A stretch of DNA of 64,000 nucleotides from Hydrogenophilaceae bacterium (GTDB lineage: Bacteria; Pseudomonadota; Alphaproteobacteria; Caulobacterales; Aquidulcibacteraceae). Shown here in pieces: positions 26,720-28,303 of this stretch (positions are counted from its first letter, which is position 1; each line of letters begins with the position of its first letter). Made by a program: the position numbers and the translations under genes. The notes beneath the pieces were generated by a model. That model had not been told where the DNA came from. It did no database searches and was given only the letters and a program-made list of their open reading frames with translations. The DNA is taken from contig JACAEE010000089.1 of assembly GCA_013389015.1 (NCBI GenBank), positions 1 to 64,000 on the forward strand. The letters run 5' to 3'.

Positions 26720-27199
26720 ATGGCTGGCAGCATCAACAAGGTCATCTTGATCGGCAATCTGGGACGCGATCCGGAGGTGCGCCGCCTCAATAGCGGCGAG
26801 CCCGTAGTCAATCTGCGCATCGCCACCAGCGACTCCTGGCGCGACAAGGCGACGGGCGAGCGCCGGGAGCGCACCGAATGGCACAATGTGGTGATCTTCA
26901 ACGAGCAGCTGGCGAAGGTCGCGGAGCAGTATCTGCGCAAGGGCTCGAAGGTTTACATCGAGGGCCAGCTGCAGACCCGGAAGTGGACCGATCAGCAGGG
27001 TCAAGAGAAATACACCACCGAAGTCGTGCTGCAGCGCTATCGCGGCGAGCTCACGATGCTTGATGGCAAGGGCGAAGGCGGCGGGGACCGCTCCTATGAT
27101 GACGAGGGCGGCGGCTTCGCGCCGTCCGGCAAAAAGCGCGTCGGCGAAGGGCCGAAGGAGAATTTCTCGGCTGATCTCGACGACGAAATCCCGTTCTGA
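26720..27199 (+). CDS. ssb: Single-stranded DNA-binding protein
   Basis: 159 residues. SSB coats single-stranded DNA in replication and repair. The N-terminal OB fold (residues 1-112) starts [21 protein letters not shown] and has the core [21 protein letters not shown] Gly-rich linker follows, and the C-terminal acidic tip DLDDEIPF binds repair partners. It is divergent from the uvrA side with the shared SOS box; a strong terminator hairpin follows the stop. Confidence 0.97.
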
Positions 27200-27251: not shown

Positions 27252-27277
27252 AGGCGCGGAGGGAGACCTCCGCGCCT
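27252..27277 (-). terminator. Terminator hairpin for the tandem 30-residue peptide genes
   Basis: A stem aggcgcggag (27252-27261) / ctccgcgcct (27268-27277) with a six-base loop lies 24 bases downstream of the second peptide stop on the minus strand. It faces the ssb terminator, so the two close convergent transcription units. Confidence 0.6.
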
Positions 27278-27300: not shown

Positions 27301-27393
27301 TCAGGCGACGATCTTGCCGGCTTGAGCGAGGATCGGAGCGGCGGCCGCGGCGAAGACGAAGCAGGCGGCGAACAGGCTGTAGAAACGGGTCAT
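27301..27393 (-). CDS. 30-residue hydrophobic peptide, tandem copy B
   Basis: 30 residues on the minus strand: MTRFYSLFAACFVFAAAAAP then ILAQAGKIVA. It is about 23/30 identical to copy A at 27441-27533. A ribosome site aaggag lies eight bases ahead of the ATG, in a block (ctgaaggagctgacc) shared with copy A. The N-terminus is a membrane helix or signal-like stretch, and the end QAGKIVA is hydrophilic and conserved. It resembles unnamed alphaproteobacterial small proteins ending in NQAAQIVA that I recall only loosely. Function unknown; it is too short for routine gene callers. Confidence 0.7.
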   Translation of the reverse strand: MTRFYSLFAACFVFAAAAAPILAQAGKIVA

Positions 27394-27440
27394 TGGGGTC
27401 AGCTCCTTCAGGGGTCTCTGCGGTCTCGGGGCGATCAAGC

Positions 27441-27533
27441 CTAGGCGACGATCTTGCCGGCTTGGCTGAGCACGGGCGCAGCGATGGCGGCGAACACGAA
27501 CGCGGCGGCGATCAGGCTCATCAGGCGGGTCAT
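27441..27533 (-). CDS. 30-residue hydrophobic peptide, tandem copy A
   Basis: 30 residues: MTRLMSLIAAAFVFAAIAAP then VLSQAGKIVA, with ribosome site aaggag six bases ahead of the ATG. It is upstream of copy B on the same strand with a 47-base spacer, so they form a two-gene unit. Third-base differences and conserved protein sequence between the copies argue that it is translated. Its helix could insert in the inner membrane, or it could be a cleaved signal peptide releasing a very short product. Function unknown. Confidence 0.72.
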   Translation of the reverse strand: MTRLMSLIAAAFVFAAIAAPVLSQAGKIVA

Positions 27534-27569
27534 GGTCAGCTCCTTCAGTACAGCTCTTGGGTTCAGCTC

Positions 27570-27586
27570 TCGGCGGCGACCGCCGA
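27570..27586 (-). promoter_or_regulatory. Leader hairpin upstream of the tandem peptides
   Basis: tcggcgg (27570-27576) pairs with ccgccga (27580-27586), a perfect 7-bp stem with a 3-base loop, 37 bases ahead of the copy A start. It would lie in the 5' leader of the peptide mRNA; a role is not shown. Confidence 0.35.
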
Positions 27587-27739
27587 TGAAGAGAGCCTAG
27601 AGCGCGCCCGCCCGTGCCGTCGTGACGCAGGGCACACTACCGCGCGGAAGGGTGAAGGGCGGCTTCACCATGTCCGCCCAGCCTTCCTTAGAAGTTGCGT
27701 GCTAGAAGGCGCGAAACGCAAGACGCGCACGGGGTTTCC

Positions 27740-28303
27740 ATGCCGAAGACGATGAAGAAGACGGCCAAGAAGACCGCCGCCAAGAAGGCCGCGCCGCGCC
27801 GCAAGGGCCCGGCCAACCTCCTGCGCGCGGCCGATATGGCCAGGCTCGAACAGACCTTCTCCCATCCATGGAATCCGAATTCCGAGATCGCCGGGGTGAT
27901 GATGGGCCGCGCGCTCGGCCTCAAGCGGCTCGCCGTCAATTTCGCGCGCGTGCCGGCAGGGAAGGAGAGCTTCGTGCCGCATGCGCATCAGCGCGAAGAG
28001 GAATGGGTCTACATCCTCTATGGCCAGGGCATGGCGCTGATCGGCGATCAGGAGGTCGAAGTCGGCGCCGGCGACTTTCTCGCCTTCCCCGCGCCGCAAG
28101 TCGCGCATCACCTGCGCAACACCGGCTTTGAGGATCTGGTTTACCTGATGGGCGGGGAGATGCTCGACGCCGACATCGTCGATTTCCCGACCTTGAAGAA
28201 GCGCGGCGTCTGGGCGGGCGGCGCCATGCGCGCCTACGACGCAGACGCCGGCGAGAACCCGTTCGCGCCGCGCGCGCGCGCCAAGAAGGCGAAGAAAAAA
28301 TAG
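27740..28303 (+). CDS. Cupin-fold protein with lysine-rich tails
   Basis: 187 residues. The cupin core (about residues 55-150) has the metal motif PHAHQREEEWVYILYGQG and the second motif PQVAHHLRNTG. The N-terminus (PKTMKKTAKKTAAKKAAPRR) and the end (RARAKKAKKK) are strongly basic, like histone H1-type tails, which is unusual for a cupin. It may bind nucleic acid or another polyanion; this is inference. The start ATG at 27740 is the first ATG after a long non-coding stretch. Confidence 0.8.
   Translation: MPKTMKKTAKKTAAKKAAPRRKGPANLLRAADMARLEQTFSHPWNPNSEIAGVMMGRALGLKRLAVNFARVPAGKESFVPHAHQREEEWVYILYGQGMALIGDQEVEVGAGDFLAFPAPQVAHHLRNTGFEDLVYLMGGEMLDADIVDFPTLKKRGVWAGGAMRAYDADAGENPFAPRARAKKAKKK

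Follow-up and report, generated by a model that had tools for sequence, protein, structure and literature searches.

A family of 30-residue hydrophobic peptides with predicted CRP-type promoters in one lineage of Caulobacterales

Results and discussion

The window, a 64,000-nucleotide stretch of DNA from one contig, carries a tandem pair of short minus-strand genes that belongs to a large unannotated peptide family, one that escapes both gene callers and family databases. Our preferred explanation, which we consider probable, is that the pair forms a two-cistron operon of single-helix inner-membrane microproteins, activated by cAMP-CRP and acting in bulk on a membrane target. Table 1 lists the features of the locus.

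Table 1. Features of the peptide locus within the window (predicted elements as marked)
Feature	Positions	Strand	Basis
Palindrome TGTGCCCTGCGTCACG of CRP type, putative activator-binding site centred at about -41.5	27621..27636	-	family consensus TGTGACCnnGGTCACA
-10 element TAGGCT	27594..27599	-	sequence, family promoter comparison
Predicted transcription start, A of TTCATCG at 27587	27586..27588	-	inferred from CATCG position
5'-terminal leader hairpin TCGGCGG-TCG-CCGCCGA	27570..27586	-	stem search
Shine-Dalgarno AAGGAG, first cistron	27540..27545	-	sequence
First peptide MTRLMSLIAAAFVFAAIAAPVLSQAGKIVA	27441..27533	-	ORF, family matches, selection
Shine-Dalgarno AAGGAG, second cistron	27403..27408	-	sequence
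Second peptide MTRFYSLFAACFVFAAAAAPILAQAGKIVA	27301..27393	-	ORF, family matches, selection
Terminator-like hairpin AGGCGCGGAGG-TCTC-CCTCCGCGCCT	27252..27277	-	11 pairs, modest T tail

A tandem pair under protein-level selection

Each of the two frames starts with ATG and has 30 codons plus a stop; 47 bases separate them, and the peptides are identical at 23 of 30 residues, just as the original prediction had described. The ribosome sites it had placed in a common block are there too, as AAGGAG together with an identical 15-nt sequence, CTGAAGGAGCTGACC, ahead of both ORFs, and so are the leader hairpin upstream and the terminator-like hairpin downstream. The two ORFs make up a 91-nt direct repeat (76%), set between a divergent cupin-like gene (27695-28303, plus strand) and a convergent ssb gene (26720-27199, plus strand).

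Selection on the encoded protein is visible within the pair itself. There are 22 nucleotide differences between the copies; when as many changes are placed at random, 16.0 +/- 1.6 of 30 residues stay the same, versus the 23 observed, with no simulation reaching 23 and with a stop codon created in 17% of trials (copy 1 against copy 2, pN/pS 0.20/0.39). A sister species (genome G003) has a copy syntenic with the pair, with the same flanking coding sequence, and comparison with it gives dS 0.19 and dN 0.10, a result resting on only ten changes and weak as a single comparison. Over 4026 pairs within the family (pairs that are not independent of one another) the median pN/pS is 0.38, or about 0.4, with 99% of values below 1, and changes fall at codon positions 1, 2 and 3 in proportions of 28, 18 and 54%. 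The original prediction had proposed two checks, conservation of the frame in relatives and a comparison of synonymous with nonsynonymous change. The frame is kept, and pN/pS lies well under 1; neither of the outcomes that it had named as contrary, a frame lost in relatives or a ratio near 1, is seen.

Family size and distribution

A tblastn search of 60 relatives with one peptide as query finds 5-19 copies in each genome of the window's genus and of other genera in the same family, and fewer in some. Copy counts made with a 31-sequence profile give at least 11 in the source genome and up to 24 detected copies in relatives from a 299-genome sample of the order Caulobacterales. Strong profile matches are limited to one family among those 299 genomes, and 384 other genomes of the class give no match at E<=1e-5. 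A scan of GTDB for QAA[Q/L]IVA followed by a stop returns loci whose labels are mostly Hyphomonadaceae, Caulobacterales, Alphaproteobacteria or Terricaulis; matches in Vibrio, Pseudomonas and other unrelated organisms failed the family profile. Terricaulis and Vitreimonas have recently been assigned to the proposed Aquidulcibacteraceae (PMC12700997), which is probably the family that harbours the peptides. None of 31 members tested has a convincing match in Pfam, NCBIfam, PHROGs or the PDB, and an Rfam search of the window returns no matches.

Variable copy number invites the reading that these are selfish or repeat-like elements amplifying without a host function, and so does the finding that, of 58 sampled loci, only 26 have flanking coding sequence in common with a locus of a different genome. 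Purifying selection and the association with a promoter and a regulator (below) argue against it; moreover, some locations are conserved between genera, such as that of the pbpC-side cluster (source genome, G003, G002 and G029), and phage and plasmid records contain no match to the peptides. We regard this explanation as very improbable.

The cluster that is syntenic across genera (L220, L221, L222, L224) adjoins two genes that form a unit and whose products, of about 1660 and 700 aa, look by size and sequence like an alpha-2-macroglobulin and a penicillin-binding protein 1C. An IS1595-like ORF of G193 recurs near the peptide cluster (L221:8141-9130). In the source genome two further palindromes (L218 on contig C142, L208 on C10) precede divergent small hydrophobic ORFs of 36 and 44 aa, with the ends ASPVMVTATHVVSA and LSALSQYAA, that are possibly distant members.

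Operon structure and leader

The tandem arrangement is common: 61 copies sit no more than 120 nt behind another copy, mostly with gaps of 24-53 nt. First and second cistrons are distinct subtypes, residue 19 being aromatic in 27/33 first cistrons versus 8/59 second cistrons, and Met in 1/33 versus 30/59. Of 89 unique leaders, 55 contain a perfect stem of at least 6 bp, a feature of about 4% of shuffled sequences; the stems use 25 distinct arm combinations, among them GAAGCG/CGCTTC, GGAAC/GTTCC and GGCGG/CCGCC, with compensatory changes. After 134 of the 179 last ORFs comes a hairpin with a T-rich tail. The proposal that the pair is a real small operon missed by gene callers, and part of a working family, is thus strongly supported by numerous paralogues and orthologues of equal length, purifying selection, a common promoter, the leader hairpin and the terminator.

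Short transcripts with strong hairpins and conserved leader and intercistronic blocks might also be expected if the transcript were a regulatory RNA and its ORFs incidental or secondary. Set against that reading are the protein-level selection, a constant length (198 of 248 distinct copies have exactly 30 aa), conserved ribosome sites, and leader stems whose sequences vary while pairing is kept. A pure RNA function therefore seems highly unlikely, while a dual-function RNA is possible.

Peptide anatomy

The family consensus is M-T-K/R-F-x-S/A-L-x-A-A-x(3)-F-A-P-x-A-x-A-x-L-x-Q-A-A-x-I-V-A. Loci fetched by the QAA[Q/L]IVA pattern bias the apparent conservation of the tail, and conservation values were therefore taken from the subset free of this bias; there Ala10, Ala18 and Ala25 are nearly invariant. 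The C-terminus ranks with the best-conserved parts of the peptide. Asp and Glu are absent from 247 of 248 copies. AlphaFold2 predicts one helix over residues 3-29 (pLDDT 91), and the most hydrophobic 19 residues have a mean hydropathy of 2.0-2.5. By the positive-inside rule, these features suggest a single-helix inner-membrane peptide with its N-terminus in the cytoplasm. The pair had been described as a hydrophobic helix with a conserved hydrophilic end, maybe a membrane regulator or stress peptide. That role was a guess; a membrane helix is consistent with the predictions. The end is hardly hydrophilic: family-wide the tail reads QAA-[Q/L]-IVA, and a lysine as in QAGKIVA occurs only at this locus and in its neighbours within the genus. 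Helical-face analysis of conservation gives no significant face, which leaves oligomerisation a guess.

Small hydrophobic peptides of this kind, predicted to lie in the membrane, recall the toxins of type I toxin-antitoxin systems (Ldr, Ibs, TimP); on this reading they would damage or depolarise the inner membrane and be silenced by an antisense or trans-acting RNA. The length of about 30 aa, the tandem, multi-copy, lineage-specific loci and the structured leaders all fit. Antisense promoters of sigma70 type are not enriched: they occur in 4 of 248 regions, whereas shuffled sequences give about 15, and there is none in the window, though this consensus may not fit the host group, and a non-consensus or trans-acting antitoxin RNA is possible. 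An activator-type promoter and efficient ribosome sites are atypical of a silenced toxin, and we judge the toxin explanation unlikely.

The N-terminal charge, hydrophobic core and small C-terminal residues also resemble a signal peptide, from which signal peptidase could free a short, conserved C-terminal peptide (e.g. TLNQAAQIVA or GKIVA) as a secreted signal in the manner of SHP or Phr. By-eye inspection finds no version of a classical signal-peptidase site conserved across all subfamilies: most have A-x-A at 18-20, but the window's genus has Pro at 20. The tail is common to species and copies, unlike that of specificity-coding pheromones, and neither a receptor nor an exporter gene was noticed in a non-systematic look beside the loci. 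Such a signal strikes us as rather improbable; the toxin and pheromone explanations are both less likely than that of membrane microproteins acting in bulk.

A CRP-type promoter

Most first cistrons share the palindrome TGTGACCnnGGTCACA, with 133 copies reaching 10/14. In 125 of these 133 a TAnnnT begins exactly 21 nt after the palindrome ends, and in most copies CATCG lies 32 nt past the palindrome. If TAnnnT is the -10 element, the centre of the palindrome falls at -41.5 (relative to a start position that is itself predicted), which is the geometry of class II CRP/FNR activators. The sites of the window and of the family are palindromes of the TGTGA-N6-TCACA type seen in CRP class II promoters.

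The promoter can be used as a query in its own right, by searching 16 genomes for it without any peptide information and using the reversed pattern as control. The control yields 1 match in 16 genomes. Peptide-bearing genomes have 2-18 promoter matches each, except for one match in G012; seven peptide-free genomes have 0 or 1. A family peptide stands behind 4/4 matches in the source genome, 4/4 in G001, 2/2 in G003, 2/2 in G010, 1/1 in G012, 10/12 in G193, 6/9 in G029 and at least 15/18 in G016; of the G002 matches, one is truncated by a contig end and one is chance-like. Promoter comparison thus leaves CRP-type regulation of the peptides well supported as a prediction, and it would appear that these cells devote most of a CRP regulon to short membrane-helix peptides.

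Two non-peptide targets recur. One is a metallophosphoesterase that, by its similarity to GpdQ and to the cAMP phosphodiesterase Rv0805, looks like a cAMP phosphodiesterase of the CpdA type; its gene is under the same promoter in G193, with a near-identical site in G029. The other is a 153-aa secreted-looking protein, whose CRP-type promoter in G193 (L230, G193:1179252) is likewise near-identical in G029 (G029:C3:435455). Also in G193 (1182613, L231), the palindrome GTGCCCGCGGTCAC lies immediately 5' of an ORF named from its sequence as an IS1595-like transposase, and in G016 (C63:58097) another promoter of the CRP type is found close to a long ORF that has a cNMP-binding-like match.

CRP is not the sole input, since about 50 copies (L051, L057, L158, L169, L183 and others) have a sigma-like promoter and a few have a third type of upstream region. 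The former show an AT-rich stretch followed by GCATCC-N16-GGCATCTC; the spacing GCATCC-N16-GCATCT, constant in 51/52, looks like the promoter of an alternative sigma factor. The third type precedes members of 35 aa (L110:3168-, L118:4251-, L130:2964+) and carries TTTAGACAAAG repeats and TTGTCA/TGACAA half-sites, suggesting a repressor. One type of peptide under several controls suggests a common output.

A candidate regulator

The candidate regulator is a CRP-type protein with a cNMP-binding domain, whose closest relative in the PDB is M. tuberculosis CRP. The Arg-Glu and Arg of the E. coli CRP recognition helix read TGTGA, and the helix of the candidate, SREKVNRK, keeps these residues (RE...R). 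At a threshold of E<1e-50, 14 of the 15 peptide-bearing genomes sampled have the protein, versus 2 of 46 others, an association with a Fisher p of about 1e-10 (1e-4 by genus), both values ignoring phylogeny although relatives are not independent. The single exception among the 15 is the source assembly itself, 83% complete, in which no such crp gene was found. Genomes G018 and G022 have a CRP protein 51-54% identical; neither peptides nor such promoters were detected in them. On one strand of G016 a family peptide (MFRFASLTVAAAVFAAVYAPLVAAAAQIMA) stands between the promoter and crp, the three being consecutive.

Two other proteins were considered and set aside as the regulator. A FixK-type protein of the source genome (C10), with the helix ETVSR, is expected to recognise TTGAT sites; a winged-helix protein of 161 aa (helix RETVRRK) near the pbpC-side cluster is patchy across peptide-bearing genomes.

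A model for the family

Comparative sequence analysis supports the family, its purifying selection, the promoter geometry, the leader hairpin and the link to a CRP-type protein; we infer cAMP as the ligand, and membrane insertion and topology. For an operon of CRP-activated membrane microproteins, the following scheme may be drawn. A CRP-type, probably cAMP-responsive activator would bind the palindrome at -41.5 and bring RNA polymerase to the promoter with its TAGGCT element. At the 5' end of the short mRNA a stem-loop would form, probably stabilising it, and each peptide would be translated from its own ribosome site, then insert as one helix with its N-terminal Lys or Arg in the cytoplasm and its QAA-x-IVA tail towards the periplasm. 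As many dispersed copies answer one signal, they probably yield a large cellular pool of near-identical helices. These could assemble together, first- and second-cistron subtypes alike, and modulate a common target in the membrane, or the membrane itself, as cAMP rises.

Oligomerisation, the target and any feedback on cAMP signalling are speculative, the last being proposed because of the links to crp and to the phosphodiesterase. A bolder version, in which cAMP-CRP has been re-purposed as a dedicated master switch for 30-residue membrane peptides and the peptides are the membrane-level arm of a cAMP feedback circuit, is one we put forward tentatively and rather doubt.

With its fixed promoter, paired subtypes and copy number, the family lends itself to testing how short membrane peptides work. 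It also carries a warning that CRP regulons drawn from annotated genes alone can miss their main products.

Comparison with known systems

Small proteins under CRP control have been described before (PMC8672173), and so have multi-copy hydrophobic peptides and TimP (PMC7667032); we found no report in the open-access literature of a CRP-type regulon composed mostly of one peptide family. VcdP of Vibrio cholerae (29 aa), which activates citrate synthase, and AzuC of E. coli are CRP-controlled small proteins (PMC8672173). They are similar in that they are proteins of about 30 aa, their genes are CRP targets, and they may tune metabolism. However, the VcdP and AzuC genes are CRP-repressed and lie on dual-function RNAs, whereas the present family has many tandem and dispersed copies with activator-type sites; the comparison carries no claim of sequence similarity. 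TimP is a 38-aa uncleaved signal-like inner-membrane toxin (PMC7667032), and it shares with Ldr, Ibs and our family a short hydrophobic peptide and tandem or repeated loci. The present peptides differ from all three in showing no enrichment of consensus antisense promoters, and in their dedicated CRP-type promoter, paired cistron subtypes and conserved uncharged tail. SHP and Phr offer a short precursor, charged start, hydrophobic core and conserved C-terminal stretch, but they are Gram-positive systems, while here the host is Gram-negative, there is no consistent cleavage site, no linked receptor was noticed, and the tail is nearly invariant between species. A parallel in control is offered by the CRP class II promoters of E. 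coli, which likewise have TGTGA-N6-TCACA centred at -41.5, a TAnnnT -10 element and a recognition helix with RE...R; unlike those regulons, the one predicted here consists mostly of unannotated 30-aa peptides.
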